64,000 nt of DNA from Roseibium marinum. GTDB lineage: Bacteria > Pseudomonadota > Alphaproteobacteria > Rhizobiales > Stappiaceae. The translations under genes and the position numbers were made by a program. This document shows positions 9,197 to 42,578 of the stretch, piece by piece. The stretch covers positions 124,001 through 188,000 of the forward strand of contig NZ_PPCN01000005.1 of the NCBI RefSeq assembly GCF_002906165.1, read 5' to 3'. Position 1 is the stretch's first letter, and the number at the start of each line of letters is the position of its first letter. The notes beneath the pieces were generated by a model. That model was not told the origin of the DNA and made no database searches. It was given only the letters and a program-made list of their open reading frames with translations.

Positions 9197-9200
9197 TTCT

Positions 9201-24466: not shown

Positions 24467-25972
24467 TTATTTGAACTTGACGTTCTCGAGGCGGATCATG
24501 CCGTCCGGATAGGGGGTGAACCCTTCCATCTTGCCGGAAAGCGCCCAGATCCAGGTCGGGTGATAGAGATAGATGATCGGCAGTTCGTCGATCAGGATAT
24601 CCCGTGCCGCATCGTATTTGGCCTTGCGGGCGGCTGTGTCGGTGCTCGTGCGGGCCTCATCCAGAAGCTTGTCGACCTCCGGAATACAGACCTTGGAGTC
24701 GTTGATGCCGCCCTTGCAGGTCATGAACTGGTGGATGTTGCCGTCCGGATCGACACGGCCCGACCAGCCGACTTGGCTGCCCTGGTAGTTGCCGGCAGAC
24801 TGGTCCGCCAGAAGGCTGGCGAATTCCATGGTCTTCAGCTTGACGTTGAAGCCGGCTTCAGCAGCCATCGACTGCACCACCTGCATCATCTGGGTCTGGA
24901 CAGGGTTGTTGGCGACCTGGATCTCCACATCGAGGCTGTCATAACCGGCTTCCTTCAGGAGCGCCTTGGCCTTTTCCACATCGCGGGCCGGAACCGGGTG
25001 GTCCTTGTCGTACCAGGGGCTGGTCGGCGGGAAGGGCTGGTTGCCGGGAGCGAAGGCACCTTCGAAGACCACCTGGTTGATAGCGTCCCGATCGAGCGAC
25101 AGGTTGAAGGCCTGGCGGATCTTCGGGTCGTTGCCGAAGGGATTGTCGCCCTTCTCGCCGTTGTTGATGTTGACGGTGATGCCCTGATAGCCAAGGCTGA
25201 CCGCTTCCTCATAGGAGAGATCCGCATCGCCCTTGACGGAGGCGACGTCGGTGGCGGCCAGCCGCTCAAGCATGTCCAGGTCGCCGGAGCGCAGGTTCGC
25301 AAGGCGCACGGTCGTGTCCGGGATCGGAAGGAAAGTCACCGTGTCGAAGTTGATGGCATCGGCGTTCCAGTATCCGTCGTATTTGCCGAGCACGATGCGG
25401 TCCTGCTGAACGCGTTCGACGAATTTGAACGGGCCGGAACAGACCGGATTGTTGCCGAAATCCACGCCAGCTGCTTCCGCGGCTGTGGGGGACATCATCA
25501 TGCCGGAACGGTCGGCAAACTGGGCAAGTAGCGTCGCGTCGGGGGCCGTCAGGTTGAACTTGACCTGCAGCGGTCCGGAAACGTCCACGCTCTCGATGGA
25601 TTTCACCTCGCTCTTGCGGCGGCTTTCCGGCATGTTTTTCGAGCGCTCGATATTCGCCTTAACGGCCTCGGCATCGAACGGTGTGCCGTCATGGAAAGTG
25701 ACGCCGTCGCGCAGGTCCATGGTCAGGACCTTGCCGTCATCGGACCAGCTCCAGCCGGTCGCGAGCTGCGGAATGATCTCGAGGTCCGGTGTGATGTCGA
25801 CCAGTTTGTCGCACAGCGACGCATAGACGATCCGGCCGACAAACGTCCGGGACTGATCGGGATCGAGCACATCGGCATCGTCCTGAAGACCGATGCGCAG
25901 ATCGGCGGCATGGGCCGCCGTTGCCAGGGTTGTCGCGCTCAGCAGCAGCGCTGCCAGGAATTGCTTACGCAT
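24467..25972 (-). CDS. Peptide-type ABC transporter substrate-binding protein, family 5
   Basis: Periplasmic protein of 501 residues. The start ATG at 25972 follows a GAGAGGAG site and overlaps the end of the upstream ATPase gene. The signal peptide RKQFLAALLLSATTLATAAHA ends near residue 22. Family 5 features are LRDGVTFHDGTPFDAEAVKANIERS and the VRQAFNLSLDRDAINQ-like block (here KIRQAFNLSLDRDAI). With a downstream ggt, likely ligands are glutathione or gamma-glutamyl peptides, by analogy with GsiB-type systems. Confidence 0.9.
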   Translation of the reverse strand: MRKQFLAALLLSATTLATAAHAADLRIGLQDDADVLDPDQSRTFVGRIVYASLCDKLVDITPDLEIIPQLATGWSWSDDGKVLTMDLRDGVTFHDGTPFDAEAVKANIERSKNMPESRRKSEVKSIESVDVSGPLQVKFNLTAPDATLLAQFADRSGMMMSPTAAEAAGVDFGNNPVCSGPFKFVERVQQDRIVLGKYDGYWNADAINFDTVTFLPIPDTTVRLANLRSGDLDMLERLAATDVASVKGDADLSYEEAVSLGYQGITVNINNGEKGDNPFGNDPKIRQAFNLSLDRDAINQVVFEGAFAPGNQPFPPTSPWYDKDHPVPARDVEKAKALLKEAGYDSLDVEIQVANNPVQTQMMQVVQSMAAEAGFNVKLKTMEFASLLADQSAGNYQGSQVGWSGRVDPDGNIHQFMTCKGGINDSKVCIPEVDKLLDEARTSTDTAARKAKYDAARDILIDELPIIYLYHPTWIWALSGKMEGFTPYPDGMIRLENVKFK

Positions 25973-27104
25973 TGTTGTGACTCCTCTCGGAAAGCTTGAT
26001 TTGAGTTTCTGTTGCGGCCGTGACCGGCTCTTGTCGTTGACTTCTTTCGCGAAACAGCGCGAAACGCTTCTCCGCGTTTTCGCTCCTTGGCGGCTCTCGG
26101 ACGGAGCCTTGCGAATTCTCGGCGATTTTCTCCCAGTGATGGCAGGCGACCATCCGCGCGTCGGCGGCCTCGGCCAGCGCGGGTTTTTCCGTGCCGCACA
26201 GGCTGGTCGCATGCGGGCAGCGGGGATGAAAGCGGCAGCCGGAAGGGGGGGCGAGCGGCGAGGGCACGTCGCCCGTCAAGGACACGTCCATGGACCGGCC
26301 ATGGGGCGAGGCAATCGGGATCGCCCGCATAAGCGCCTGCGTATAGGGATGCAGCGGTTTGTCATAAAGCGGGTCATTGGGCGCCAGTTCGACGATTTCG
26401 CCCAGATACATCACGGCGATGCGGTCGCTCATGTGCCGGATGACAGCCAGGTCATGGGCAATGAGAACCAGCGTCAGGTCGAATTCGGCCTTCAGATCCT
26501 CCAGGAGATTTATGACCTGGGCCTGCACGGAGACATCCAGCGCGGACACCGGCTCGTCGCCGACAATCACTTTCGGGCCGCTGGCCAGGGCCCGCGCGAT
26601 GCCGATGCGCTGGCGCTGGCCGCCGGAAAACTCATGCGGATAGCGGTTGGCGAAAGCCGCGCGGAGGCCGACCTTCGTCAAGAGGTCGGCCACTTTCAGG
26701 CGCCGTTCCTTGCGCGAAAGCGACGTGTGGACCTTCATCGGCTCCTCGATCAGCGCGCCGACGGTCATGCGCGGATTGAGCGAGGAAAACGGGTCCTGGA
26801 AGACGAACTGAAGATCCTTGCGCAGGCGGCGCATCTCCGGTTCGGAAAGGGACGAGATGTCATTGCCCTCGTAGAGCACCGCGCCCTCGGATGCCGGCAG
26901 CAGCCGCACCAGAAGACGGGCAAGAGTGGACTTGCCGCAGCCGCTTTCACCGACGATCGAGAAAGTCTCCCCGCGCCGGATGTCCAGAGACACGTCGTTG
27001 ACGGCGCTGACGGACACAGAGCGTCCGAACAGGCCCTTGCTGCTGGTAAACCGCTTGGTGAGCGCGCGGGTCTCGATGATCCTGTCGCGTGTCGGCGGCC
27101 TCAT
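25965..27104 (-). CDS. Peptide-type ABC transporter ATP-binding protein, DppF family
   Basis: Cytoplasmic ATPase of 379 residues. Walker [10 protein letters not shown] (residues 51-59), signature [15 protein letters not shown] and Walker [17 protein letters not shown] are present, followed by the oligopeptide C-terminal domain with four cysteines or near-cysteines (CRFHPRCPHATSLC). That pattern is linked to an iron-sulfur site in some Dpp proteins. A long basic C-terminal tail of about 45 residues is unusual for the family. It overlaps the DppD stop by ATGA. Confidence 0.9.
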   Translation of the reverse strand: MRPPTRDRIIETRALTKRFTSSKGLFGRSVSVSAVNDVSLDIRRGETFSIVGESGCGKSTLARLLVRLLPASEGAVLYEGNDISSLSEPEMRRLRKDLQFVFQDPFSSLNPRMTVGALIEEPMKVHTSLSRKERRLKVADLLTKVGLRAAFANRYPHEFSGGQRQRIGIARALASGPKVIVGDEPVSALDVSVQAQVINLLEDLKAEFDLTLVLIAHDLAVIRHMSDRIAVMYLGEIVELAPNDPLYDKPLHPYTQALMRAIPIASPHGRSMDVSLTGDVPSPLAPPSGCRFHPRCPHATSLCGTEKPALAEAADARMVACHHWEKIAENSQGSVREPPRSENAEKRFALFRERSQRQEPVTAATETQIKLSERSHNNA

Positions 27105-28129
27105 GATCCGGCCTCCTGGAACACGGCCTCGGGGAAAACGGTTTCCAGCGGCGCGTAGTGGCAGGCGGCCCGGTGGGACGGGCCGAGTTCGTCAAGCGGC
27201 GGTTGCGAGACAGCGCAATTTGTCTGGGCGAAGGGGCATCGCGGCGTGAAGCGGCATCCAGAAGGCATGTTATCGATCGCCGGCACCATGCCGCCGATGG
27301 CCGCAAGCCTGCCGGAGCGCGGACCGACAGAGGGCACGGAGCTCATCAGGCCGATTGTATAGGGGTGCTGAGGATCGTCGAAGATGGCTTCCACCGGACC
27401 GTCCTCGACCATGTGGCCGGCATACATGACACAGACCCTGTCGGCGATTTCCGCGACAACGCCCAGGTCGTGGGTGATCATCACGAGAGCCGTTCCGGTT
27501 TCCTTCTGAAGCTCCTCGATCAGATCGATGATCTGGGCCTGGATGGTGACATCCAGCGCTGTGGTCGGCTCATCTGCGATCAGCACGGCGGGGTCATTGG
27601 CAAGCGCCATGGCGATCATGACGCGCTGGCGCATGCCGCCGGAAAGCTCGTGCGGGTAGTCGTCCAGCCGGCTTGACGCGGCGGGGATCTTCACCCGGTC
27701 GAGCATCTGCAGCGCGCGCTGCCGCGCCTCGGCCCGGGTCACGCTCTTGTGGCGCAACACGACCTCGGCGATCTGGTCGCCGATCCGGTAGGACGGATTG
27801 AGCGAGGTCATCGGTTCCTGGAAAATCATCGAGATGGTGTTGCCGCGCAGATCCGCCATGGCGCGCTGCGACAGCTCGAGCAGATCGTGATCGCCGAACA
27901 TGGCCGTGCCCGACATGACCTGTGCGACGGACCGGGGGAGCAGTCCCATGAGCGACAGGGCGGTGACCGACTTGCCGCAACCGCTCTCGCCAACAATGCA
28001 CAGGGTTTCGCCCGGGCGGACGGCGAAGGAGATGCCGTCGATGATGTTGGCCGGCGCGCCCTTGAAGCGCAGCGCCAGATTTTCGACGCTCAGAACCGGA
28101 GCGGCGTTCAGGTCAATGGCCTTCGACAT
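27101..28129 (-). CDS. Peptide-type ABC transporter ATP-binding protein, DppD family
   Basis: Cytoplasmic ATPase of 342 residues and partner of the DppF-type protein. Walker [19 protein letters not shown] (residues 47-64), signature [15 protein letters not shown] and Walker [17 protein letters not shown] are the usual DppD forms. The C-terminal oligopeptide motif [14 protein letters not shown] is intact. Its start lies within the last 17 bases of the regulator gene, so expression is presumably coupled to it. Confidence 0.9.
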
Positions 28130-28835
28130 CGGCCACCTCTGTCGCGTTCTGATAAAGAAGGCGCTGCTGGAGGGCCAGCAGATGGCTGCGCATGGCTTTT
28201 TCCGCCGAGATCGGGTCGCGGCTCTCGATGGCCTTGATGATGTCGACGTGCTGGGACTTGTAGAGCGTCATCGCGTCGTTGGTCCGAAGAGCTTCGCGCA
28301 CATGACGCCAGGCGGCATCCTGTCGGACCCGGTCGACCACATCGAACAGCGCCAGGAAGAGTGTGTTCTTGGCGGCGCGCGCGATGGCCCGGTGGAGGGC
28401 GCTGTCCCAGAGTTCGCGACCGTCCATGTCCTCTGCCTTGCCGAGGCGGTCGGCAACGTCGCGCATTGCGGCGATATCCGCCGGACTGGCTCGCAGGGCC
28501 GCCAGACGGGCAAGGACAGGCTCAATCTGCAGCCGGACTTCCATCACTTCGAGCATGTTGGAATTCTCGTGCAGGGAAACGAGCTGCTTGTCCGGGTGGG
28601 CGGGCTCGCTGCCGATGAAGGTTCCGGCGCCCTGGCGCCGCCAGATCTTGCCTTCCGTTTCAAGCACTTCCAGCGCCCGACGAACCGCCCTGCGGCCGAC
28701 GCCTATGGTTTCGGACAGTTCGCGTTCGGTGGGAACCTGCTCGGCTCCTTCGGCCGTCAGCTGATCCACGATGATCCTGAGCCGCTCGAGAGCCATGCTT
28801 GAATTCCGCTGCGAAGGCTTTTCCGTTTCGTTCAT
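28113..28835 (-). CDS. GntR family transcriptional regulator, FCD subfamily
   Basis: Regulator of 240 residues from ATG 28835. The winged helix (residues 15-80) contains VPTERELSETIGVGRRAVRRALEVLETEGKIWRRQGAGTFIG, and the FCD domain contains conserved acidic and histidine residues (LHRAIARAAKN) that usually bind a metal and a carboxylate. The frame is open to 28898, but the longer version would include the palindrome at 28850-28867. It heads the dpp-ggt operon and probably represses it in the absence of its ligand. Confidence 0.87.
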   Translation of the reverse strand: MNETEKPSQRNSSMALERLRIIVDQLTAEGAEQVPTERELSETIGVGRRAVRRALEVLETEGKIWRRQGAGTFIGSEPAHPDKQLVSLHENSNMLEVMEVRLQIEPVLARLAALRASPADIAAMRDVADRLGKAEDMDGRELWDSALHRAIARAAKNTLFLALFDVVDRVRQDAAWRHVREALRTNDAMTLYKSQHVDIIKAIESRDPISAEKAMRSHLLALQQRLLYQNATEVADVEGH

Positions 28836-28849
28836 GCCATACCAATGTG

Positions 28850-28867
28850 AACCAATTTCAATTGGTT
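28850..28867. promoter_or_regulatory. Palindromic GntR operator candidate
   Basis: AACCAATT and AATTGGTT are separated by TC, giving an 18-bp inverted repeat 14 bases upstream of the GntR start codon. A further CCAAT (28842-28846) and ATTGG (28872-28876) flank it. The position suits autorepression of the dpp-ggt operon. Confidence 0.6.
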
Positions 28868-29424
28868 TCATTATTGGCAGGAAATTTTCGGAGTGCAACC
28901 CTATGAGATGCGGCTTTTGACGGCGTATCTGATCTTGGCTGAGTCGAATTCCTTAAGTGAATTTCAACTGAGACGCTGCGACGAATATCGATCAACTCTT
29001 TGTATAAAATAGGTAAATTATAACTCATGTGACGCCGATGGCTCTCCTGTTCCTCAGGAAAATGCGGAGGCTGCTTGAAATTTGTGCGATGGAACAAATT
29101 TTAATCGGTCGCCTTGAAACTGGATTTATTGATGCTGATGCGCAAGGAAATTCCGGAAATCTCAAAAAAATGTCCAAACTATTCTGGCGGATGAGCGAAA
29201 ATAGTCTATATTTTTCAAGATGATTGTCCGGTTATGATGTCCCTGGGCGGCGCAAGGCGATGACTAATCGATTGGTTCGCTCCGGATATCCCTTGCAAGG
29301 AAATACGGATGGTAACGTTTTGAGCGTGCCGGATCTTTGGGCGACGGAGCAATTGACAAGAGTTTTGTCTTCGGCAATCCTTCGAGGCACATAGCGGCAT
29401 TCGTTCAGCCGCATGGCAACCGCG
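28868..29424. other. Long divergent intergenic region and leader of the ami operon
   Basis: About 560 bases without a supported gene, between the GntR-headed operon and the AmiC operon. It holds AAATTTGT and ACAAATTT arms with an 8-base centre at 29078-29101, a candidate operator. A small hairpin GACAA-GAGTT-TTGTC is at 29355-29369 and a GCGGC/GCCGC stem at 29394-29412; both could belong to a structured leader upstream of the terminator at 29425. A 64-codon frame at 29029-29223 has no ribosome site and is not called. Confidence 0.5.
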
Positions 29425-29467
29425 CCCCGATCTGTCGCAGCTGATACCTGCGGGTCGGGGTTTTTTT
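29425..29467 (+). terminator. Leader terminator (attenuator candidate) of the ami operon
   Basis: CCCCGA pairs with TCGGGG around an inner CGCAG/CTGCG stem and is followed by seven T residues. It sits 58 bases upstream of the AmiC start and is oriented to stop plus-strand transcription before the operon. Because the second gene encodes an ANTAR antiterminator, this is the natural site of regulation. A canonical pair of hexaloop hairpins could not be identified with certainty. Confidence 0.7.
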
Positions 29468-29525
29468 GTGCCCGGCCGTAATTGCGCGTTCTTGAAGCGG
29501 CGGACCGGTGGAGTTGAAGGTGGGT

Positions 29526-30764
29526 ATGGGTTTGAGGGAAATTCCGGTCGGCGTCCTGTTTTCGAAATCCGGATCCTATTCCGTGATCGGCCAGGAAGGC
29601 TATTGGGGTGCCCGGATCGCCATCGACGAGATCAACGCGTCCGGGCTTTTCGATTTCCGCTTCCTGAGAGTGGACGGCGACCCGGCGGGCCTGGCTGAAA
29701 ACTACGCCGTCGAGGCGGACCGGTTGATGCGTGAGGCCGGATGCCGCCACATCGTCGGCACCCAGACCTCGTCCAGCCGCAAGGAAGTGCTCCCGGTTCT
29801 GGAACGCGGGCGCGGACTGCTCTGGTACACGACGCCCTATGAGGGCTTCGAAAGTCATGACCGCGTCGTCTATACGGGGGCCTGTCCGAACCAGGGGGTC
29901 GTTCCCCTCTTCCGCCACATCGTGCCGGAGTTCGGCCGCGATGCTTTCCTGGTCGGTTCCAACTATATCTGGGGCTGGGAGACCAACCGGATCGCCCGCG
30001 AGCTTCTGGCCGCTTGCGACGGTGAGGTGCTCGGCGAGAGATATGTCGCCATCGGTGACGAGAATATCGCTCATCTGATCGCGGAAATTCGCGAAAAACG
30101 GCCATCCTTCATCTTCAACAACCTGATCGGCGTCAGCAGCTATGCGTTCCTGCGCGCCATGAAGGAACTGGCCGGCGAGGATCCCGCCTTCGCATCGGAC
30201 CGCTGTCCGATCCTGAGCTGCAACCTGACCGAGGCGGAACTGCCGGTTCTGGGCGCGGCGGCGGACGGACTGATTTCCACCTCGACCTATTTCGAAACGC
30301 TGGAAACGCCCGAAAACGCGGCCCTGCGCAAACGGCTGGAAGGCATGCGTGGTCCGGAGACGGCAATATCCTCCATGTTCGTCGGGCCCTATGAGGCGGT
30401 CTGGCTTCTGGCGCGGGCGATCGAGGCCTGCGGGAGCGATCATCCGGACGACGTGCTGGCGGAGCTCTGCCGTCAATCCCACAAGACGCCTCTCAGGGAG
30501 ATCCGCATCGATCCGCAAACCCAGCATGCCCACCTGCAGCCGTTGATCGCGGTGGTGGAGGCGGGCGACCATTCGGACGGTGGTGCTACCGGGCGGTCCC
30601 GGTTCCGCATCATCGAGAAGACGCCTGGACCGCTGGCGCCGGACCCCTATCTCGTTCATTACGATCCGCTGGACACAGGCACCGCAACTAGCCCGGGAGG
30701 CTCCGCGCGAATGCGTGCGCCCGATGTCGGCAGCGCCCCGAAACTGAGGCTGGTGTCGTCATGA
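29526..30764 (+). CDS. amiC: AmiC-like amide-sensing protein (cytoplasmic periplasmic-binding fold)
   Basis: Cytoplasmic ligand sensor, 412 residues from ATG 29526 (GAAGG site); a GTG at 29508 is an alternative. There is no signal peptide. It starts IPVGVLFSKSGSYSVIGQEGYWGA and carries the blocks LLWYTTPYEGFE and a C-terminal LAPDPYLVHYD, matching P. aeruginosa AmiC, which holds AmiR inactive until an amide binds. It overlaps the AmiR start by ATGA. The amide transporter and formamidase downstream support the role of negative regulator by sequestration. Confidence 0.88.
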   Translation: MGLREIPVGVLFSKSGSYSVIGQEGYWGARIAIDEINASGLFDFRFLRVDGDPAGLAENYAVEADRLMREAGCRHIVGTQTSSSRKEVLPVLERGRGLLWYTTPYEGFESHDRVVYTGACPNQGVVPLFRHIVPEFGRDAFLVGSNYIWGWETNRIARELLAACDGEVLGERYVAIGDENIAHLIAEIREKRPSFIFNNLIGVSSYAFLRAMKELAGEDPAFASDRCPILSCNLTEAELPVLGAAADGLISTSTYFETLETPENAALRKRLEGMRGPETAISSMFVGPYEAVWLLARAIEACGSDHPDDVLAELCRQSHKTPLREIRIDPQTQHAHLQPLIAVVEAGDHSDGGATGRSRFRIIEKTPGPLAPDPYLVHYDPLDTGTATSPGGSARMRAPDVGSAPKLRLVSS

Positions 30765-31363
30765 GCAATCTGTTCCGCACCCCCAGTTTCCGAGGCAGGT
30801 CCGCCAGCATCCTGCACAAACCGCATGCGGACCGCGACGCCGTCTGCCGTCAGCTCGACCGTCTCGGTGTGGAGATTTCGACCGCATGGCCGGAACTTCC
30901 GGCCGAGGCCGAGCAGGCGGACCTTCTCATATTCGACGCCGATGCCGGCCATGACGCCCAGTTTCCCTGGCCGGTCGATGCCCATCCGATGCCGATGATC
31001 GCCTTGATGGGAACCGAAGCGCCCGGACGCGTCGAGTGGGCGATCCGGCGCGGCGCCATCGCGCATCTCAACAAGCCGGTCACGTCAAGCGGTGTGTATG
31101 GCGCGCTGGTCGTCGCGCAGCGGACCTTCGCCATGCGCCGCGCTTCCGAGGAGCGCATCGCCACGCTGGAGGCACGGCTTGCCTGCCGGCCGCAGGTCGC
31201 GGAGGCCATTCTTCTGCTGATGCAGCATCAGGACGGCGATGCGGAAACGGCCTACCGTCTGCTGCAGGACATGGCGATGAAGAGCCGCCAGACCATCGAG
31301 GCCGTGGCCGGGGATCTGATCGAGCGCGCGGGAGGGCAGAATGACGGCCGACGCGAAGCCTGA
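30761..31363 (+). CDS. amiR: AmiR-like ANTAR-domain antiterminator
   Basis: RNA-binding regulator of 200 residues. Residues 15-120 form a receiver-like domain lacking the phosphoacceptor pattern, as in AmiR. A coiled-coil follows (RRASEERIATLEARL), and residues 140-195 are an ANTAR domain (VAEAILLLMQHQDGDAETAYRLLQDMAMKSRQTIEAVAGDLI). It should bind hairpins in the leader RNA and prevent termination at 29425-29467 when released from AmiC. It overlaps both neighbours, so the stoichiometry with AmiC is probably set by translational coupling. Confidence 0.88.
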   Translation: MSNLFRTPSFRGRSASILHKPHADRDAVCRQLDRLGVEISTAWPELPAEAEQADLLIFDADAGHDAQFPWPVDAHPMPMIALMGTEAPGRVEWAIRRGAIAHLNKPVTSSGVYGALVVAQRTFAMRRASEERIATLEARLACRPQVAEAILLLMQHQDGDAETAYRLLQDMAMKSRQTIEAVAGDLIERAGGQNDGRREA

Positions 31364-32243
31364 AATCCTCCCGGTCGGGACCGCCGATCTGCCCCGTGGC
31401 GCGTTGCGGCGGCTGGTTGGCAGAAAACTGGCGCTTTTCGCCATGATGGTGATCGGGGTCATTGTCGGGGCCGCCCTGTTCGCTCCGCTGGTCGCGCCCT
31501 TCAATCCGGAAGAGCAGTTCTTCGAGGGCCTGACGCTGGAAGGCGCGCCGCTGCCGCCGGGCGAAAGGTTCTGGCTCGGCACGGATCTTCTCGGCCGGGA
31601 CCTGCTGTCGCGGCTGATCTACGGCGCCAGAACGTCACTGATCATCGGGATCGTGGCAAACGGCATCGCCGTGGTGGTCGGTGCCTTCGTCGGCATTCTC
31701 GCCGGCTTCTTCCGCGGCTGGGTGGAAACGCTGCTGATGCGGTTCACCGACCTGATGATGGCCTTTCCGGCGCTCCTTCTGGCCATCACCCTGGCCGCGA
31801 TCTTCCAGCCCTCGCTGTGGATCGTCGCCATGGTCATCGCCATGGTGAACTGGGTGCAGATGGCGCGTGTCGTCTACACGGAAACCAGGTCGCTATCGGA
31901 GCGGGAATTCATTCTCGCCGAGCGGGCCATGGGGGCCGGACTGTTCCGCATCCTGTTCCGTCACATTCTGCCGCACCTTTTGTCCACTATCGTGGTCTTC
32001 GGCACGCTCGGCATTTCCACGACCGTGCTTCTCGAGGCAACGCTCAGCTATCTGGGCATCGGCGTTCAGCCGCCGACCCCTTCCTGGGGCAATATCATCT
32101 ACGAGAACCAGACCTATTTCACTTCCGCGCCCTGGCTGGTGTTCTTCCCCGGCATTGCGATCATCGCCCTGGCGCTGGGCTTCAACCTTCTGGGCGACAG
32201 CTTGCGGGAAGTGCTCGACCCGACCCAGAAGGGGAGGCACTGA
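31341..32243 (+). CDS. Peptide/amide-type ABC transporter permease, DppC family
   Basis: Inner-membrane permease of 300 residues whose ATG overlaps the amiR end by 23 bases. The segment FWLGTDLLGRDLLSRLIYGARTSLIIG is diagnostic of DppC. The EAA loop ILAERAMGAGLFRILFRHILPHLL and the ending LGDSLREVLDPTQKGRH complete the family pattern. Here DppC precedes DppB, the reverse of the usual order. Confidence 0.9.
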   Translation: MTADAKPEILPVGTADLPRGALRRLVGRKLALFAMMVIGVIVGAALFAPLVAPFNPEEQFFEGLTLEGAPLPPGERFWLGTDLLGRDLLSRLIYGARTSLIIGIVANGIAVVVGAFVGILAGFFRGWVETLLMRFTDLMMAFPALLLAITLAAIFQPSLWIVAMVIAMVNWVQMARVVYTETRSLSEREFILAERAMGAGLFRILFRHILPHLLSTIVVFGTLGISTTVLLEATLSYLGIGVQPPTPSWGNIIYENQTYFTSAPWLVFFPGIAIIALALGFNLLGDSLREVLDPTQKGRH

Positions 32244-32245
32244 TC

Positions 32246-33166
32246 ATGGGTGGTTATGTCCTGCGGCGCGTCCTGCAATCGCTGCTCATCCTGCTCGGGA
32301 TAACGTTCCTGACATTCATCCTGCTGTACCTGATCCCGGCGGACCCGGCGCGCCAGATCGCGGGCCGCAGCGCAACGGCGCAGACTGTGGAGAACATCCG
32401 CGAGCAACTGGGTCTCAACCTGCCGTTCTACCAGCAGTATTTCCGTTATCTGACCGGTCTCCTGCAGGGCGATCTCGGACGGTCCTACCTGCAGAAGACG
32501 GAAGTCGGCGAGCTGATCCGCTCGCGCCTGCCCGCCACCCTCCTGTTGATGGCGGGTGCGATCATCTGCGAACTCGCCATCGGCCTGACCATGGGGATCG
32601 TTGCAGCCCTTCGCCGCAACACGGCAACGGATACGAGCCTCATGGTTCTTTCCTTCGTCGGCGTCTCCTCGCCGCAATTCGTGATCGGCATCCTGCTTCT
32701 CTATGTGTTCTCGGTGCAGCTCGGCTGGTTTCCGATCGGCGGCTACGGGACGTTCCGGCACATGGTCCTGCCGTCCCTGACGCTCGGCCTGCTGGGCGCC
32801 GGCTGGTACTCGCGCATGATGCGCTCGTCGATGATCGACGTGCTGCGCCAGGACTTCATCCGCACGGCGCGGGCCAAGGGCCTGAAGCGCTGGCAGGTGC
32901 TGTTCGGCCATGCCATGCCGAACGCGCTGCTGCCGGTCATCGCCATGATCGGCATCGATATCGGCCTGTTCATGAGCGGCATCGTCGTGGTGGAAAGCGT
33001 TTTCGGCTGGCCGGGCATCGGACAGCTCGCCTGGCAGGCCATCCAGCGTGTCGACATCCCGATCATCATGGGCGTCACGCTCGTCTCCGCATTCGCGATC
33101 GTTCTCGGAAACTTCCTCGCCGACCTGATCGTGCCCCTGATTGATCCGAGGATCAAGCTGCGCTGA
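32246..33166 (+). CDS. Peptide/amide-type ABC transporter permease, DppB family
   Basis: Inner-membrane permease of 306 residues from ATG 32246, two bases after the DppC stop with a GGGGAGG site upstream. It begins MGGYVLRRVLQSLLILLGITF, followed by LIPADPARQIAG, and carries the EAA loop FIRTARAKGLKRWQVLFGHAMPNALLPV. The open frame to 31817 is an out-of-frame extension across dppC and is not used. Confidence 0.9.
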   Translation: MGGYVLRRVLQSLLILLGITFLTFILLYLIPADPARQIAGRSATAQTVENIREQLGLNLPFYQQYFRYLTGLLQGDLGRSYLQKTEVGELIRSRLPATLLLMAGAIICELAIGLTMGIVAALRRNTATDTSLMVLSFVGVSSPQFVIGILLLYVFSVQLGWFPIGGYGTFRHMVLPSLTLGLLGAGWYSRMMRSSMIDVLRQDFIRTARAKGLKRWQVLFGHAMPNALLPVIAMIGIDIGLFMSGIVVVESVFGWPGIGQLAWQAIQRVDIPIIMGVTLVSAFAIVLGNFLADLIVPLIDPRIKLR

Positions 33167-33240
33167 CGCGCGGCAAAGAATGCCGGAAAATCCGCCGACA
33201 GAGCGGACCGGCGAAATCACCTGAACCTGGAGGTTTGATC

Positions 33241-34863
33241 ATGAATAAAACACTTCTGGCAGGGGCTGCCGCCCTTCTTGCCGCAACGGCTCTCACACCC
33301 GCTCAGGCGGATGACATCAAACAGGGTGGGTCGATGATCGTCACCTACAAGGACGATGTCTCCACGCTCGACCCGGCAATCGGCTATGACTGGCAGAACT
33401 GGTCGATGATCAAGAGCCTGTTCGACGGTCTGATGGACTACGAACCGGGCACGACCAATCTGATGAACGACCTTGCCGAGGACTACACGATTTCCGACGA
33501 CGGCAAGGTCTTCACCTTCAAGCTGCGCGAGGGTGTCAAGTTCCACAATGGCCGCGAATTGACCGCGGAAGACGTCAAATACTCGCTGGACCGGGTGACC
33601 AATCCCGAAACCCAGAGCCCGGGCGCCGGTTTCTTCGGCTCCATCAAGGGCTTTGACGCCGTCGCCGCCGGCGACGCCGACAGCCTTGAAGGGGTGACGG
33701 TGGTCGACCCTTATACGGTGAAGATCGAACTCTCCCGTCCGGACGCGACGTTCCTGCATGTGATGGCGATCAACTTCTCGTCCATCGTTCCCAAGGAGGC
33801 CGTCGAGGAATGGGGTGCCGATTTCGGCAAGCATCCGGTCGGAAGCGGTGCATTTTCATTGGAGGAGTGGACCCTCGGACAGCGCCTGGTGTTCAAGCGC
33901 AACGAGGACTACTGGCGCGCCGGTGTGCCCAAGCTCGACGAGATCACCTTCGAGGTCGGCCAGGAGCCGATTGTCGCGCTTCTGCGCCTGCAGCGCGGCG
34001 AAGCCGATATTCCGGGCGACGGCATCCCGCCGGCGAAGTTCCTCGAAGTCACCAAGGATCCGCAATACAAGGACCTGATCATCGAGGGTGGCCAGTTGCA
34101 CACCGGCTATGTCACCATGAACGTGAAGATGCCGCCGTTCGACAAGCCGGAAGTGCGCAAGGCCGTCAACATGGCGATCAACAAGGACCGCGTCGTGCGC
34201 ATCATCAACGGCCGCGCCGTTCCGGCCAACCAGCCGCTGCCGCCGACCATGCCGGGATACGACAACAATTACGAAGGCTACGCCTACGATCCGGAAGCCG
34301 CGAAAGCACTTCTGGCCGAGGCAGGCCTCGGCGACGGTTTCGAGACGGAACTCTATGTCTACAACACCGATCCGAACCCGCGTATCGCCCAGGCCATCCA
34401 GGCGGATCTCGCCGCCATCGGCATCAAGGCCGAAATCAAGGCGCTGGCCCAGGCCAATGTCATCGCGGCCGGCGGCGAACCCGATCAGGCGCCAATGATC
34501 TGGTCCGGCGGCATGGCCTGGATCGCCGACTTCCCGGATCCGTCCAACTTCTACGGTCCGATCCTCGGCTGCGCCGGCGCGGTCAAGGGCGGCTGGAACT
34601 GGTCCTGGTACTGTAACGAGGAGCTGGACGCGCTGGCGACGGCTGCCGACAGCATGACGGATCCGGCCCAGAAGGCCGAGCGCGAGGAAGCCTGGCGCAA
34701 GATCTTCATCGCGGTAATGGATGACGCGGCCTGGGCGCCGGTCTTCCACGAACAGCGTTTCACGATGCGGTCCGAGCGGCTGGGTGGTCCTGATGCCATC
34801 TTCGTCGATCCGGTCCACATTCCCGTCAACTACGATTATGTATGGGCGAAAGATGTGCAGTAA
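33241..34863 (+). CDS. ABC transporter substrate-binding protein, family 5, amide operon
   Basis: Periplasmic protein of 540 residues. ATG 33241 follows a GGAGG site by seven bases. The signal peptide KTLLAGAAALLAATALTPAQA ends near residue 23. Family 5 blocks are KLREGVKFHNGRELTAEDVKYSLDRV and VRKAVNMAINKDRVVRI. The amide-sensor and formamidase context suggests an amide or short amidated peptide as ligand, although the fold is that of peptide-binding proteins. Confidence 0.9.
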   Translation: MNKTLLAGAAALLAATALTPAQADDIKQGGSMIVTYKDDVSTLDPAIGYDWQNWSMIKSLFDGLMDYEPGTTNLMNDLAEDYTISDDGKVFTFKLREGVKFHNGRELTAEDVKYSLDRVTNPETQSPGAGFFGSIKGFDAVAAGDADSLEGVTVVDPYTVKIELSRPDATFLHVMAINFSSIVPKEAVEEWGADFGKHPVGSGAFSLEEWTLGQRLVFKRNEDYWRAGVPKLDEITFEVGQEPIVALLRLQRGEADIPGDGIPPAKFLEVTKDPQYKDLIIEGGQLHTGYVTMNVKMPPFDKPEVRKAVNMAINKDRVVRIINGRAVPANQPLPPTMPGYDNNYEGYAYDPEAAKALLAEAGLGDGFETELYVYNTDPNPRIAQAIQADLAAIGIKAEIKALAQANVIAAGGEPDQAPMIWSGGMAWIADFPDPSNFYGPILGCAGAVKGGWNWSWYCNEELDALATAADSMTDPAQKAEREEAWRKIFIAVMDDAAWAPVFHEQRFTMRSERLGGPDAIFVDPVHIPVNYDYVWAKDVQ

Positions 34864-35803
34864 CTGCAAGGCCGCTTACACCATTCACGCGGCACAGCAT
34901 CACTTCGGCTGGGACAATTCGTTTGCCCCGGCCGAGACGGTGGCTCCCGGTACGGTGCTCGAATTCGAGTGCCTCGACAGTTCCGCGGGGCAACTGACGC
35001 CGGAAAGCACCATCCAGGATGTCGCGGACCTGGATTTCGGCAAGATCAACCCGGTCAATGGCCCCATCCGTGTGGATGGGGCCGAGCCGGGCGATGCGCT
35101 GGTCGTGAAGATCCATGAATTCAAGCCGTCCGGTTTCGGCTGGACCGCCAACATTCCCGGCTTCGGCCTGCTGGCCGACCAGTTCAAGGACCCGGCGCTG
35201 CATGTCTGGTCCTATGACAAGGACAAGCCGGTCACGTCCGCCTTCGCGCCCTTCGGCAAGGTGCCGCTCAAACCCTTCGCCGGGACGATCGGCGTCGCGC
35301 CGGCGGAGGCAGGCCTGCATTCCATCGTGCCGCCGCGGCGTGTCGGCGGAAACATGGACATCCGCGATCTTGCCGCCGGAACGACGCTTTACCTGCCGAT
35401 AGAAGTCGCGGGCGCCCTGTTTTCCATCGGCGACACCCATGCCGCTCAGGGCGATGGCGAAGTCTGTGGCACGGCCATCGAAAGCCCGATGAACACGGTG
35501 ATCGAACTGGATCTCATCAAGGGTGCGGATCTGAAGATGCCGCGTTTCGAGACGCCGGGCCCTGTCACCCGACATCTGGATGAAATGGGCTATGAGGTCA
35601 CGACCGGGATCGGCACCGATCTCTTCGCGGGTGCCCAGGCGGCCGTATCGAACATGATCGATCTCCTGTGCGCCCGCCACGGCTACAGCGCGGTCGATGC
35701 CTACATGCTGTGTTCGGTATGCGGCGATCTGAGGATCTCGGAAATCGTCGACGCGCCGAACTGGGTCGTGTCCTTCTATTTCCCGAAGGTCGTGCTGCAG
35801 TAA
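34853..35803 (+). CDS. fmdA: Acetamidase/formamidase family protein
   Basis: Cytoplasmic amidohydrolase of 316 residues that should release ammonia and a carboxylate from short amides. The diagnostic N-terminal block QHHFGWDNSFAPAETVAPG (residues 14-32) and the central GTIGVAPAEAGLHSIVPPRRVGGNMD block match the family; the GGNMD aspartate and nearby histidines (GDTHAAQGDGE) provide metal ligands. ATG 34853 overlaps the binding-protein stop by 11 bases, while ATG 34838 is a weaker alternative. It is the only catabolic enzyme in the AmiC/AmiR operon. Confidence 0.9.
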   Translation: MCSNCKAAYTIHAAQHHFGWDNSFAPAETVAPGTVLEFECLDSSAGQLTPESTIQDVADLDFGKINPVNGPIRVDGAEPGDALVVKIHEFKPSGFGWTANIPGFGLLADQFKDPALHVWSYDKDKPVTSAFAPFGKVPLKPFAGTIGVAPAEAGLHSIVPPRRVGGNMDIRDLAAGTTLYLPIEVAGALFSIGDTHAAQGDGEVCGTAIESPMNTVIELDLIKGADLKMPRFETPGPVTRHLDEMGYEVTTGIGTDLFAGAQAAVSNMIDLLCARHGYSAVDAYMLCSVCGDLRISEIVDAPNWVVSFYFPKVVLQ

Positions 35804-35842
35804 TCGCATCCGGGCGGCGGTCTTGCGGCTGCCGCCCGCCTT

Positions 35843-37660
35843 ATGAAGCCCATTACCAGAGTGAACAGAGTGCCCTCATCGCCAGATCCAGCAGTGTCCT
35901 CCGACGGTGTCATTCTATCGGTCCGGGGGCTTTGCACCGACGTTGCAACGCCAACCGGAGCAAGGACCGTGGTCAGCGACCTGTCCTTCGATCTGCGTCG
36001 GGGGGAAACGCTGTGCATCGCCGGCGAGTCCGGTTCCGGAAAATCGATTACAGCGCTGTCGATCATGGGCCTGCTGCCGGAACGGATGGCTCGGGTCTCG
36101 GGCGGCGAGGTGCTGTTTCAGGGCCGGGACCTGACAAAGATCCGCGAAGACGAGTTGCGCCGCATTCGCGGCGGCGACATCGCGATGATCTTTCAGGAGC
36201 CGATGACGTCGCTGAACCCGGTTCTGACCGTCGGGCGGCAATTGCGCGAGGCTATCTTCGCGCATCAGGATGTTTCGCGGTCGAAGGCGGAAAAGATCGC
36301 TCTGGCGATGCTCGAGTCGGTGCGTCTTTCGGAACCCCGCCGCCGTCTGCGGCAATATCCGCACGAATTGTCCGGCGGCATGCGCCAGCGGGTAATGATC
36401 GCCATGGCGCTGGCCTGCAATCCGAAGATCCTCATCGCCGACGAACCGACGACAGCCCTCGACGTGACCATCCAGGCGCAGATCCTGCAACTCATCCGCG
36501 ATCTGCAGCGCGACTTCGGCACGGCCGTCATCATGATCACCCATGACATGGGCGTGGTCGCCGAAATGGCGGACAGGGTGATTGTCATGAACAACGGCCG
36601 CATCGTGGAACGGGGCGAAGTCGCGGATGTCTTCGAACGGCCGTCCGATCCCTACACGCGCCGGCTGCTTGACGCGGTGCCGAAGCTGGGCGCCATGACC
36701 GGCCTCGACAGTGCGCCCAAGGGCGGGAGCGAGGCGCAGCCGCGGGTTCTTGAGGTGGAGGATCTCGTCGTCCGCTTCGATCTGCGCGGCGGGCTACTCA
36801 ACCGGGTCACCTCTCGCGTCCACGCGGTAGAAGGTGTCTCCCTTCACCTCGAACCCGGGGAGACCCTGGGGCTGGTCGGGGAAAGCGGCTGCGGAAAATC
36901 CACTATCGGCAAGGCGCTCCTGAACCTTGTGCCCTGGGAAGGCTCCATCCGGGTCGCTGGGCAGCATGCCGGTGTCGGCGGCGCGGCGATGCAGAAGCGC
37001 CTGCGGCGGGACATGCAGATGATCTTCCAGGATCCCTACGCCTCGCTCGACCCGCGCATGACAGTCGGCGACATTGTCGGCGAACCGCTGATCATTCACG
37101 GATTGGCGAAAGGACAGGACCTCAAGGACCGTGTCGCTTCGCTTTTCGAGCGCGTTGGACTTCCCGCCGAGGCGATGATCCGCCATCCGCACGAGTTTTC
37201 CGGCGGACAGCGTCAGCGTATCTGTATCGCGAGGGCGCTTGCTCTGTCGCCGAAGGTGATCATTGCCGACGAAAGCGTTTCCGCGCTCGACGTGTCCGTG
37301 CAGGCCCGCGTCCTGGATCTGCTGCAGGAACTGCAGGAGGACCTTGGTCTCTCCTATCTCTTCATCTCGCACGACATGGCCGTGGTGGAACAGATCTCCC
37401 ACCGGATCGCCGTGATGTATCTCGGCCAGATCGTGGAGACCGGCACACGGCGGCAGGTCTTCGAAAATCCGCAGCACGAATATACGCAGAGGCTTTTGAA
37501 AGCCGTGCCGATTCCGGACCCGAAAAAGCGGCGCGCCGTCTTCGATGTGCCGGCCGGTGAAATTCCCTCTCCCGTGCTGCCGCTCGGACAGGCCGTCAGC
37601 AGGGTGCGCTATACCGATGTCGGCGAAAGGCATCTGGTTGCGGACGGGCTCCCCGGTTAA
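35843..37660 (+). CDS. Fused DppD-DppF ABC transporter ATP-binding protein
   Basis: A 605-residue protein with two complete ATPase domains in tandem. The first half has Walker [12 protein letters not shown], signature [15 protein letters not shown] and Walker [17 protein letters not shown]. The second has [27 protein letters not shown] and [16 protein letters not shown]. This matches the GsiA/YliA-type fusion and supplies both ATPases for the amide-operon importer. The second-half Walker B reads DES where most have DEP. Confidence 0.92.
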
Positions 37661-40451: not shown

Positions 40452-41390
40452 TCACGTTCCCGGCTTGATCATGGCGGTGTGGATGCGAGTGACTTCCGAA
40501 GAGAGGAAGTCACAGAAATCCTTGGCCACGATCGAAATCGGGCGGTGCGTCGGCGTCAGGATCGACAAGCTGTTCTGGATCCGGGGCCGGAAGGGCCTGA
40601 AGACGATCATCGGCGGACCCATGCCGAGCCGGCCGTTTTCCTGTGCCTTGTAGGCGGTGATCGTGTCGCAGATCAGGGCGCAGAGCCCGGCCTGGACGAA
40701 ATGCAGTCCCGGCAGCGCGGTCTGCAGTTCGAAGCGCTGGTTGAATTGCACGCCGGCATCCCTGAACCTGGCAAGGGTCTGTTTGTGGCTGCGGTGCTCG
40801 GCGTGAAGCAGCGCCAGAGGGTAGCCGTCCAGTTCCGCCGGTGTGATGACTTCTCTCGATGCCAGCGGGTCCGTCGCCGAAATGGCGCACATGCATTCCA
40901 GATCGAAATCGATCTGGTCGAAAGAGTTACGGGCGCGCGGGGTTTCGGCGAAACCGATATCGAACTGCTGGGCCGCGATCAACTCTTCGATTTCGGCGGA
41001 GGTCTTGCTTGCCAGGGCAACCTTGACGCTGGGCTTGTCGGCGATGAACTGCGACAGGCTGATGGGCAGGAAATCGGCCGCTGCTTCCGGGATGCCCGCT
41101 ATGCGCAACTGGCCGTGCTCGCGATTGGCAAGACCGCGCAGGGTGCGTTTGGAAATCTCCAACCGCTTCAGGATCGCTTCGGCTTCTTCCAGAAAGAATT
41201 CGGCTTCCGGTGTGGGAACCAGACGGCCCTGTTCGCGCATGAAAAGTTTCAGTTCGAGTTCGGTTTCCAGTCCGGCGATTGTTGAACTGACCGCGGGCTG
41301 CGTCCGGCCAAGCGTACGAGCAGCTTCAGAAATCGAACCGCTCCGCATTACTTCACGAAAGGTGGCCAGTTGCCGGATTGAAAGATTCAT
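40452..41390 (-). CDS. LysR family transcriptional regulator
   Basis: Regulator of 312 residues with an N-terminal winged helix (residues 3-62: LSIRQLATFREVMRSGSISEAARTLGRTQPAVSSTIAGLETELELKLF) and a type-2 periplasmic-binding effector domain. It lies downstream of the creatininase gene in the same orientation across a 228-base AT-rich gap, so it probably has its own promoter. It may regulate the creatininase-like gene. Confidence 0.88.
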   Translation of the reverse strand: MNLSIRQLATFREVMRSGSISEAARTLGRTQPAVSSTIAGLETELELKLFMREQGRLVPTPEAEFFLEEAEAILKRLEISKRTLRGLANREHGQLRIAGIPEAAADFLPISLSQFIADKPSVKVALASKTSAEIEELIAAQQFDIGFAETPRARNSFDQIDFDLECMCAISATDPLASREVITPAELDGYPLALLHAEHRSHKQTLARFRDAGVQFNQRFELQTALPGLHFVQAGLCALICDTITAYKAQENGRLGMGPPMIVFRPFRPRIQNSLSILTPTHRPISIVAKDFCDFLSSEVTRIHTAMIKPGT

Positions 41391-41618: not shown

Positions 41619-42422
41619 TTACGCGAGTGGATTCCAGAGCCGGTCAAGATCAAAGGCGTTCACGTCCTGGATCAGTTCGACGAAACCCCTGGCGGCGTGA
41701 TTGAGGGACAGCCGGCCTTTTTCGGCCGTGGCCCTGGCCGCATCGCCAAGCGCTCCGGCCGGGTTCAGATCCTGGGCCAGCCAGCCGAACTGTGCTTTTC
41801 CGTGGCCACGAAGATGTTTGAATTCCTTCAGGAATTTTTGCTGTTCGGACAGAAAGTCCTCGGCCAGATCCATACGTACGAGGTCGGGGTGCAAATGCAG
41901 CATAAGCGAGGTTTCGATGTCGCCGCCGTGAATGCCGTAGGTGAATTCCTCTTGCGGATAAAGGCCTTCCGGTTGACCGAAGCGGAGCCAGTTCGTCGCC
42001 GTGACGAACATGCCGTGTTTCACCCTGAGGTCCCGGGCAACGATATCGAGAACCGGCACATTGCCGCCATGGGAGTTGATCAGCACCATCTTGCGGATGC
42101 CCGCCCTGGCAATGCTTTCTCCGATCTCGAACCAGCAGCGGGCGACCGTATCCCAGGACAGGGTCAAGGTGCCCGGTGAGGAAATATGCTCGTCCGACTT
42201 GCCGATGGCCTGAACGGGAAGAAACGTTGCCGGCAGGCTGTCGGGCAGAAGTTCCACTACGCGGCGGATCTGACCTTGAGCGATGGCGGTGTCGGTAAAG
42301 AGCGGTAAATGGGGCCCATGCTGCTCTATCGCAGCCACCGGCAGGACCGCGATCCAGTCTTCCCGGGCCGGGTCGTTGAAATCGACCGTCGTCATCTCAT
42401 GCCAGAAACGCTTGGGCAGCAT
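41619..42422 (-). CDS. Creatininase family amidohydrolase
   Basis: Cytoplasmic metal-dependent hydrolase of 267 residues; the ATG at 42422 follows AGGA, and the longer frame to 42515 lacks a site. The metal-binding residues are visible: the E of IEQHGPHLP and the H that follows, the D in LFTDTAIA, the SHGGN motif near residue 120, and E in HGGDIETS. Family members act on creatinine, other cyclic amides, or process the mycofactocin peptide; no mycofactocin genes are nearby. Substrate is open. Confidence 0.85.
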   Translation of the reverse strand: MLPKRFWHEMTTVDFNDPAREDWIAVLPVAAIEQHGPHLPLFTDTAIAQGQIRRVVELLPDSLPATFLPVQAIGKSDEHISSPGTLTLSWDTVARCWFEIGESIARAGIRKMVLINSHGGNVPVLDIVARDLRVKHGMFVTATNWLRFGQPEGLYPQEEFTYGIHGGDIETSLMLHLHPDLVRMDLAEDFLSEQQKFLKEFKHLRGHGKAQFGWLAQDLNPAGALGDAARATAEKGRLSLNHAARGFVELIQDVNAFDLDRLWNPLA

Positions 42423-42578
42423 TGTGAAGTCCTGTCCGGGTTGGTGCCTGTGCCCTCTTTGCACAGCCGGACGGGGCAGGCAAGAGGCGGCCGGGCTCCG
42501 GCCGATCACGCACATATGATGATGGTTTAGGAGCCGCCGTTTAGACTTTACTGACCTGTTGCGTGGACAATCCAGTCC

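Follow-up and report, generated by a model that had tools for sequence, protein, structure and literature searches.

The window analysed here is a 64,000-nucleotide stretch of Roseibium marinum DNA (contig NZ_PPCN01000005.1, positions 124,001 to 188,000), in which seven forward-strand genes form an operon that probably takes up and cleaves amide-like compounds, controlled by a sensor together with an RNA-binding antiterminator (Table 1). The gene content proposed in the initial annotation is borne out: amiC, amiR, two Dpp-type permeases, a solute-binding protein (SBP), an amidase-family enzyme and a fused double ATPase. That annotation opened the region at 29425, but the control region begins further upstream, with a TTGACA element and two hairpins, P1 and P2.

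Table 1. Features of the amiC-amiR operon and its leader (window coordinates)
Feature	Position	Strand	Basis
Sigma-70-like promoter	29353..29381	+	TTGACA 29353-29358, 17-nt spacer, AATCCT 29376-29381
ACATA element at predicted RNA 5' end	29389..29393	+	A[AC]ATA common in relatives
P1 hairpin, GCGGC-9 nt-GCCGC	29394..29412	+	P1 present in 46/82 leaders
P2 hairpin, GGC-AACCGC-GCC, proposed AmiR-stabilised antiterminator	29415..29426	+	Motif conservation; GCC doubles as start of terminator 5' arm
Intrinsic terminator, seven T	29424..29467	+	Covarying 9-pair stem; folding
amiC, ligand sensor	29508..30764	+	GTG start; no evident signal peptide; Peripla_BP_5
amiR, antiterminator	30761..31363	+	AmiR_N + ANTAR
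Permease C, Dpp/Opp-type	31341..32243	+	BPD_transp_1 + OppC_N
Permease B, Dpp/Opp-type	32246..33166	+	Translation; homologue at same position in 66 full-order loci (of 80)
Family-5 SBP	33241..34863	+	SBP_bac_5
fmdA, acetamidase/formamidase-family enzyme	34853..35803	+	FmdA_AmdA + PDB match
Fused DppD-DppF-type ATPase	35843..37660	+	Two ABC domains

Pfam placed AmiC in Peripla_BP_5 (2.2e-93), AmiR in AmiR_N (9.1e-13) and ANTAR (3e-11), the SBP in SBP_bac_5 (3e-103) and FmdA in FmdA_AmdA (1.4e-60; the frame scanned was the longer 34721-35803), and found two ABC_tran stretches in the ATPase. Permease B was judged by its translation and its homologues; an alternative long frame across it (31867-33144) had no Pfam or NCBIfam match. 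With a family-5 SBP, two permeases and two ATPase domains carrying oligo_HPY, the importer is of Dpp/Opp type. Sequence searches matched AmiC to PDB 1pea (3.4e-50, residues 14-398), AmiR to 1qo0_D (3.4e-9) and FmdA to 5ubu (2.5e-39). The sensor is 1PEA-like and adjoins a protein with an AmiR_N pseudo-receiver and an ANTAR domain, as in an AmiC/AmiR pair; their genes overlap by 4 nt, and sbp and fmdA overlap at 34853-34863. Start codons, stop codons and leader coordinates were verified against the sequence, and relatives make ATG 29526 a likelier amiC start than the GTG. The enzyme, annotated at first as a formamidase, does belong to the acetamidase/formamidase family (PF03069, 205.6 bits against a gathering cut-off of 27), but formamidase itself is a family guess, because the score is 129.3 bits against the 500-bit cut-off of the NCBIfam formamidase model NF045496.

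The seven-T terminator just upstream of amiC, recognized from the outset, is confirmed: GCCCCGATC (29424-29432) pairs with GGTCGGGGT (29453-29461), and the T run occupies 29461-29467. The RNA is predicted to start at about 29387-29389, behind a weak -10 element (AATCCT). The minimum free energy fold of the full leader contains P1 and the terminator (-33.3 kcal/mol), and the leader cut before the terminator 3' arm folds as P1 and P2, not better than shuffles (z -0.90, 34/200). A consensus promoter/terminator scan listed neither the leader promoter nor the terminator: the -10 is poor, and the loop and interrupted stem of the terminator presumably exceed what the scan allows.

We compared this leader with related ones of at least 300 nt from loci with AmiR identity of at least 40% (clade A), identical ones removed, giving 85 leaders that are related sequences and not independent trials. 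With the GGC/GCC frame and A at loop position 1 (A1) fixed beforehand, the P2 motif GGC-A.....-GCC was found upstream of amiC in 82/85, against a mean of 3.6 in shuffles keeping dinucleotides; the exact motif is missing in L091, L121 and L137. Later counts use 82 leaders defined by a looser pattern and a T-run, which dropped L091, L122, L125, L132 and L137; the P1 and A[AC]ATA shuffles for this set keep base composition only. In 79/82 leaders the P2 GCC begins the terminator stem ending at the T-run, and P2 and the terminator therefore exclude each other, an arrangement typical of ANTAR targets that is seen in both the sequence and the folds. Pairing of the terminator stem is beyond chance, with 6/9 pairs changed on both sides across 30 leaders and 0/500 shuffles as high. 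The three pairs of P2 are invariant in the 30-row alignment, and the sole instance of P2 covariation is L091, in which the arms are exchanged (GCC-AAATGA-GGC) and A1, G at loop position 5 (G5) and the terminator pairing are kept.

Conserved hairpins upstream of the terminator, which the initial annotation had suggested seeking in homologous loci, are thus present, P2 more widely than P1. P1 was found in 46/82 leaders (shuffle mean 8.1, maximum 17) and is absent from 36 by the test used; a P1 common to all leaders was sought across the 82 and not found. In alignment A2, whose 30 leaders were chosen for having P1, 3/5 of its pairs changed on both sides. TTGAC lies at most 90 nt upstream of P2 in 64/82 leaders, mostly at 54-72 nt where P1 is present and at 44-54 nt in 18/20 without it, the exceptions being L093 (58 nt) and L029 (62 nt), whose P1 is imperfect. 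A[AC]ATA occurs in 44/82 (shuffle mean 5.9, maximum 14). Where a promoter can be placed, P2 starts about 8-27 nt from the predicted RNA 5' end.

We propose that the operon regulates itself by antitermination, controlled by AmiC/AmiR through one re-registered hexaloop, and give this reading a probability of roughly 0.7. The case is comparative and draws on conservation, the GCC common to P2 and the terminator, co-occurrence with AmiR and a single shift from G at loop position 4 (G4) to G5; from there we infer the RNA start, AmiR binding, read-through and ligand. Transcription would start about 35 nt upstream of the terminator. Without inducer, AmiC would hold AmiR, by analogy with P. aeruginosa, and transcription would mostly end at 29461-29467. 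Ligand binding by AmiC would free AmiR to hold P2 (GGC-AACCGC-GCC) as it emerges from the polymerase; the terminator could then not form, because P2 takes the GCC that it needs, and the whole operon including amiC-amiR would be transcribed, a positive feedback that acts on the sensor, the importer and the amidase alike. AmiRs of this clade would recognise just one hexaloop, marked by A1 and, in place of G4, by a purine at position 5 that is G in most cases, and P1 would be a stem that can be absent and whose loop is free. The original suggestion that the sensor pair controls its own operon and the importer is partly supported: the comparison favours an antitermination site ahead of amiC-amiR, importer and amidase, but the canonical dual-hairpin target is lacking in the 82 leaders.

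The switch may be as described and yet respond to larger amides, such as amino-acid or peptide amides, and not to formamide or acetamide; we put the chance of this somewhat below even. The importer is peptide-type, the sister AmiC/AmiR operons L138 and L168 have a proline-iminopeptidase-family hydrolase replacing fmdA, and of 97 AmiC rows (some genomes being present twice) 96 or 97 depart from the P. aeruginosa residue at each of positions 83, 152, 153 and 233, whereas S85, Y104 and Y150 are kept in 97/97 and the enzyme family takes its name from small amides. Positions 83, 152 and 233 we take to line the ligand pocket, whose residues hint that acetamide is not the inducer.

The importer class named 'cluster 5' is presumably that for peptides, nickel and opines. 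The gene order had been put forward as an unusual variant; it is not rare, as 66/80 named AmiR loci have it in full, and AmiC/AmiR with a cluster-5 importer is already published, to judge from the available part of that source (PMC13209695). On sequence comparison the operon is common in Alphaproteobacteria, with examples as far apart as Roseibium and Rhizobium johnstonii 3841. What is new is the leader: searches of the open PubMed Central library turned up no account of such leaders or of the operon.

Within the genus, 14/14 genomes that encode this AmiR (E<=1e-20) have the leader at the operon, departing from the pattern at 0-3 positions; the other 31 genomes have no leader-pattern match at 0 or 1 mismatch, and in the search for further targets in the genus only matches with 2-3 mismatches lay outside the operon. 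The covariance model R1 (30 leaders) found one site per AmiR genome in the 14, at amiC. Applied to 75 of the 80 named loci, it gave 62 matches in 61 loci and none in 14; 61 matches sit 1.1-1.4 kb before amiR, which is upstream of amiC, and the remaining one is an additional copy in L170 that lies between fmdA and oppD and has a promoter of its own. Loci chosen through FmdA (20 loci out of 85 genomes with matches; amiCR is present in 14, two of them, L245 and L248, truncated at the leader) have the P2 motif in 10/12 readable amiCR leaders, the exceptions being L249, with a G1 loop (GACGAA), and L250, with a 7-nt loop; L238, L248 and L250 in this set are the same records as L127, L122 and L137. 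Weak R1 matches were also seen in L219 and L220, which have no operon genes; in L219, however, a GGC-AATTGT-GCC hairpin adjoins a terminator, so that this match may be genuine.

This distribution bears on the idea that P2 is a protein-independent antiterminator or pause hairpin whose loop is conserved for folding, with AmiR acting elsewhere. The hairpin folds unaided in truncated RNA, and the purine at loop position 5 (78/82) could be structural. We nevertheless consider the idea unlikely: the leader tracks amiCR, occurring in 14/14 genus genomes with AmiR against 0/31 others at 0-1 mismatch, and the strict leader pattern is absent from the fmdA strand of 6 fmdA loci without amiCR, a weak point in that this pattern finds just 7/12 amiCR loci and 70/82 leaders and that L239 has a match to it on the opposite strand.

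Very unlikely, in turn, is a canonical target, in which AmiR would bind two A1/G4 hexaloops like EutV and NasR. In its favour, AmiR belongs to the ANTAR proteins, P2 and the terminator overlap in the canonical manner, and AmiRs outside the clade do possess such sites. Like the dual-hexaloop targets of EutV, NasR, NasT and actinobacterial proteins, the leader has a C-G-closed P2 hexaloop, A1 and bases common with the terminator. In contrast, it has one hexaloop, G mostly at position 5, a P1 that is variable or missing and mostly a 2-nt linker. The dual A1/G4 target was found in 0/82 clade-A leaders (shuffle 0.3), and the comparison with known ANTAR dual-hairpin targets called for at the outset therefore came out negative. 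P2 loops have G5 in 62/82 leaders, G4 in 7/82 and G at neither position in 14/82. Where P1 is present, its loop is 3-10 nt long, a hexaloop in 6/46 and an A1/G4 hexaloop in 0/46, and the P1-P2 linker is 2 nt in 35/46. The window itself has the P2 loop AACCGC and a 9-nt P1 loop. For EutV, by the available part of PMC3369931, P1 is required and induction is lost with a 3-base linker.

The AmiR proteins were compared with EutV by counting positions from the conserved aromatic and Met, EutV itself being outside the alignment. On this numbering clade-A AmiRs keep the equivalents of Arg142 (87/87), Tyr164 as Y, F or W (81/87) and Met172 (86/87); Glu160 is Glu in only 48/87, Arg177 is mostly Thr or Ser, and the G4-contacting Lys149 is Lys in 0/87. 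On the AmiR tree G4 versus G5 changes once (80 scored rows) and the Lys position twice; basal clade members keep G4, and L092 carries both G4 and G5. Clade B comprised 25 loci. Lys-type AmiRs outside the clade had G4 in 8/8 scorable loci (L040, L098, L099, L100, L102, L226, L228 and L234; where several loops overlapped the terminator, the G4 loop was taken), and a clade-B scan for A1/G4 loops only, without shuffle control, showed such hexaloops in twos or threes at a terminator in L040, L099, L100 and L102. Lysine loss as the explanation of G4 loss holds only partly, as L041, L043, L230 and L232 lack the Lys yet have G4 loops, which brings the clade-B loci scored G4 to 12. L097 (GAGGGC) and L101 (AAGGAT, weak terminator) were left unscored and L042 (AGGGGT over a weak terminator) was left out; L095 and L231 have other loops, and nothing usable emerged from L045, L094, L096, L225, L227, L229, L236 and L237.

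We judge it evenly balanced whether this widespread alphaproteobacterial AmiR clade shifted its RNA code, such that a lone hexaloop suffices for antitermination, read no longer at position 4 but at position 5, and P1 is lost or reduced to a plain stem, with the basal members (Inquilinus-type, Maritalea and L092) preserving the steps G4, G4+G5 and G5. If true, the leader would represent a naturally occurring ANTAR switch built on a single hexaloop, and an instance of protein-RNA co-evolution after losing the G4-contacting lysine, and the series of intermediates would allow stepwise rebuilding of the G4 to G5 change. Earlier ANTAR target searches, as far as the available parts of the sources go, sought two hexaloops with A1 and G4 (PMC3369931), in one case allowing single point variations (PMC8164766). 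As 0/82 leaders follow the full dual rule, dual-hexaloop searches are likely to overlook them. The paper on the EutV structure, in its available part, treats one hexaloop as the minimal binding unit, yet with both contacted in turn (PMC8934654). Leaders with only one hairpin, placed close to the RNA 5' end, would put this argument to the test, and their departure from the two-hairpin rule described for the ANTAR family makes the rule testable.

The GGC-N6-GCC inverted repeat could instead be a DNA operator acting at initiation, both arms being conserved and falling near +27 to +38 of the predicted RNA; we hold this highly improbable, since AmiR has an ANTAR RNA-binding domain, GCC starts the terminator stem in 79/82 leaders and L091 flips P2 with terminator pairing kept. 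Leader-peptide attenuation or a riboswitch, which a short leader followed by a terminator and an ATG at 29413 might suggest, is scarcely credible, as only 12/82 leaders have ATG at that site, Rfam gave no match to window or leader, whether at gathering thresholds or with E relaxed to 10, and there is scant space for an aptamer beyond P1.

The P. aeruginosa amidase operon, which includes amiE, has a homologous sensor and antiterminator (1qo0, 1pea). The Roseibium operon differs in that the leader lies before amiC itself, there is no amiE, a Dpp-type importer and an FmdA-family enzyme are present, and both the pocket positions of AmiC and the Lys position of AmiR are changed. In P. aeruginosa, as the available part of PMC3369931 has it, a terminator likewise precedes the controlled genes, and the AmiR target is described there as dual A1/G4. 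L226, L228, L230 and L234 are alike in having amiC-amiR with an importer, but that importer is Urt/branched-chain-type (urea/amide) and G4 hexaloops lie at the terminator. In the Klebsiella plasmid amiE-amiC-amiR system AmiC/AmiR adjoin an ABC importer named 'cluster 5', with amiE in place of the FmdA family and no mention of a leader (PMC13209695, available part). The one Klebsiella AmiR plasmid that we examined, L225, has branched-chain-type permeases instead.

All seven genes of the operon were identified on the + strand in the order claimed by the initial annotation: amiC, amiR, permease C, permease B, a solute-binding protein, an FmdA-family enzyme and a fused double ATPase, with a divergent GntR regulator gene as upstream neighbor. 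Among the named relatives listed, the closest to this AmiR is that of an uncultured Roseibium (100% identity); the 6.06-Mb source genome has one further ANTAR domain, on another contig. From its predicted start the leader RNA would run ACAUA, a first hairpin P1 (GCGGC-9 nt-GCCGC), AU, a second hairpin P2 (GGC-AACCGC-GCC) and a terminator whose 5' arm starts with the GCC of P2. The whole leader folds as P1 plus terminator (-33.3 kcal/mol, z -2.76, 3 of 200 shuffles equally good), and RNA ended before the 3' terminator arm folds as P1 plus P2 (-12.7, z -0.90, 34 of 200 shuffles equally good). Covariation over 30 leaders chosen for having P1 was strong for terminator pairs and moderate for P1 pairs, and the three P2 pairs were invariant in this set; in L091, a locus outside it, the P2 arms are exchanged (GCC-AAATGA-GGC) with a terminator to match. 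In 79 of 82 leaders from clade A (AmiRs at least 40% identical to ours) the P2 GCC opens a stem of at least 5 unbroken pairs ending at a T-run; L119, L145 and L154 failed this test.

This leader travels with amiCR. Of 85 clade-A leaders, 82 carry GGC-A.....-GCC no more than 260 nt ahead of amiC, where dinucleotide shuffles give 3.6 on average (maximum 8 in 50 rounds); in clade B, the AmiRs outside clade A, 1 of 11 leaders has it. When loci were chosen by FmdA instead, 14 of 20 had amiCR, with the motif in 10 of the 12 readable leaders among these. A stricter leader pattern was not found on the fmdA strand in any of the six FmdA loci lacking amiCR, a weak negative because the same pattern recovers only 7 of 12 amiCR leaders and matches the strand opposite fmdA in one locus, L239. 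Within the genus, the leader was found with 0-3 mismatches in all 14 genomes carrying this AmiR, and no further site matched its pattern at 0 or 1 mismatch. A covariance model of the 30 leaders matched 22 of 121 relatives. These comprise the same 14 genomes, each with a single site, and eight genomes outside the genus; five of the seven examined among these eight (G817, G818, G081, G046, G051) carry an amiC-amiR operon, G071 and G067 have none at that place, and the eighth is G821. Over 75 of the best 80 named loci the model gave 62 matches, including leaders used to build it, of which 61 lie 1.1-1.4 kb before amiR; 14 loci had no match. The one remaining match is a second leader copy in L170 (Rhabdonatronobacter), preceded by a TTGAC element of its own and placed inside an amiC-amiR-fmdA operon, after fmdA and before the next ATPase gene.

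Known ANTAR targets are two hexaloop hairpins with A at position 1 and G at position 4 (PMC3369931, PMC7496416, PMC8164766). The initial annotation proposed a comparison with such dual-hairpin targets: homologous loci do have conserved hairpins ahead of the terminator, but the dual A1/G4 hexaloop motif of the canonical target occurred in 0 of the 82 clade-A leaders (shuffle 0.3). Their P2 loop keeps A1 in 81 and has G4 in 7; position 5 is G in 62 and a purine in 78, and 14 loops lack G at position 4 as well as at position 5. P1 was found in 46 leaders (shuffle 8.1); its loop spans 3-10 nt and is never an A1/G4 hexaloop, and in 35 of them a 2-nt linker joins it to P2. Among the 36 P1-less leaders a TTGAC element was found in 20, 18 of which place it 44-54 nt from P2. 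The RNA ahead of P2 would then be about 8-18 nt long, so that a canonical first hairpin would hardly fit, if at all; TTGAC did not serve to place the promoter in the other 16. In positive controls outside clade A, scanned for the A1/G4 pattern only and with no shuffle control, sets of two or three A1/G4 hexaloops were seen at a terminator; they lie upstream of amiC in L040 and downstream of amiR in L040, L099, L100 and L102.

On a 107-row AmiR tree, a quick search with some basal forks open and several long branches flagged, one change is enough to account for G4 versus G5 (80 rows scored). G4 was scored in 12 clade-B loci, in P. aeruginosa (state taken from published work) and in six basal rows of clade A, namely L118, L123, L128 and L156, three of them titled Inquilinus, and L148 and L151 from Maritalea; L092 carries both G4 and G5. 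In the leaders of L118, L123, L128 and L156, P1 is an 8-bp stem capped by a triloop and P2 keeps G4 (AATGAA), which we read as an intermediate state. P1 presence requires at least 8 changes on the tree. In EutV, G4 is contacted by Arg142, Lys149 and Glu160 and stacked on Tyr164, with Met172 as plug (PMC8934654). At the positions equated with these, matched without EutV in the alignment, 87 clade-A AmiRs have Arg in 87, Lys in 0, Glu in 48, Tyr, Phe or Trp in 81 and Met in 86. As the lysine loss extends beyond the loss of G4, it would be at most a permissive step. The operon and its antitermination, as originally proposed, stand as the best reading on comparative grounds only, and the leader class is apparently a divergent, single-hexaloop ANTAR type whose loop register shifted in one step.

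The interest would lie in this leader variant and its register shift, not in operon rarity. AmiR matches were found in 14 of 45 genus genomes at 1e-20; at E<=0.001, with distant types counted in, 21 of 61 related genomes gave one, and a named-genome scan gave at least 469 relatives. Among the best 80 of these, 66 have the full seven-gene set in identical order, so the order initially thought unusual is widespread. Rhizobium johnstonii 3841 carries the operon on pRL11 (RL_RS32045 to RL_RS32015, with amiR as RL_RS32040); AmiC/AmiR adjoining a "cluster 5" importer is also already described from a Klebsiella plasmid (PMC13209695). No account of the present seven-gene operon was found in the open PubMed Central literature searched. 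Contig ends interrupt seven more of the 80, with agreeing partial order, and seven have a different downstream module: fmdA directly 3' of amiR in L137 and L170, and a gap of ~1 kb after amiR in five, filled by a proline-iminopeptidase-family hydrolase in the two scanned (L138, L168).

The sensor differs from P. aeruginosa AmiC at presumed pocket positions. Across 97 clade-A rows, P. aeruginosa AmiC Tyr83 is kept in none, Tyr152 is Trp and Pro153 is Gly in all, and Thr233 is Asn in 96; Ser85, Tyr104 and Tyr150 are kept in all. Positions 83, 152 and 233 presumably line the ligand pocket. Together, the changed and kept residues suggest that the ligand is probably an amide, though not simply acetamide.

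Locations of the leader start and of additional features
Feature	Location	Strand	Remark
Predicted RNA start	window, near 29388	+	
Another peptide-type system with SBP_bac_5, two ABC ATPases and a GntR regulator	window, 24467-28898	-	points away from leader
LysR gene	window, 40452-41390		adjoins creatininase-family gene
Creatininase-family amidohydrolase	window, 41619-42515	-	near operon
Further ANTAR domain	G000:C4:176334-176495		75 bits; loci L001, L044
Second leader copy	L170, 11660-11790		
Operon with split frames	L222, 2286-8495		genome G818
Leader-like hairpin pair	L219, ~9160-9231	-	second loop AATTGT; at terminator
Three successive hairpins	L102, 7271-7335	-	hexaloop AATGGC each

Several loci merit individual mention. 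In L222, from the window's family, amiC, amiR and fmdA are each matched in two frames and the permease and solute-binding protein genes in one, reflecting either decay or sequencing error. The record of L128 is titled Mycobacterium sp. KBS0706, yet its operon groups with Inquilinus limosus, through either a mislabelled genome or transfer. The hairpin pair in L219 belongs to a genome whose clade-B AmiR lies elsewhere. Of the 12 loci L027-L038, 7 (L027-L032, L035) have a GntR homolog next to amiC. The L102 hairpins, a possible triple ANTAR target, lie 3' of a clade-B amiR and are followed by a terminator.
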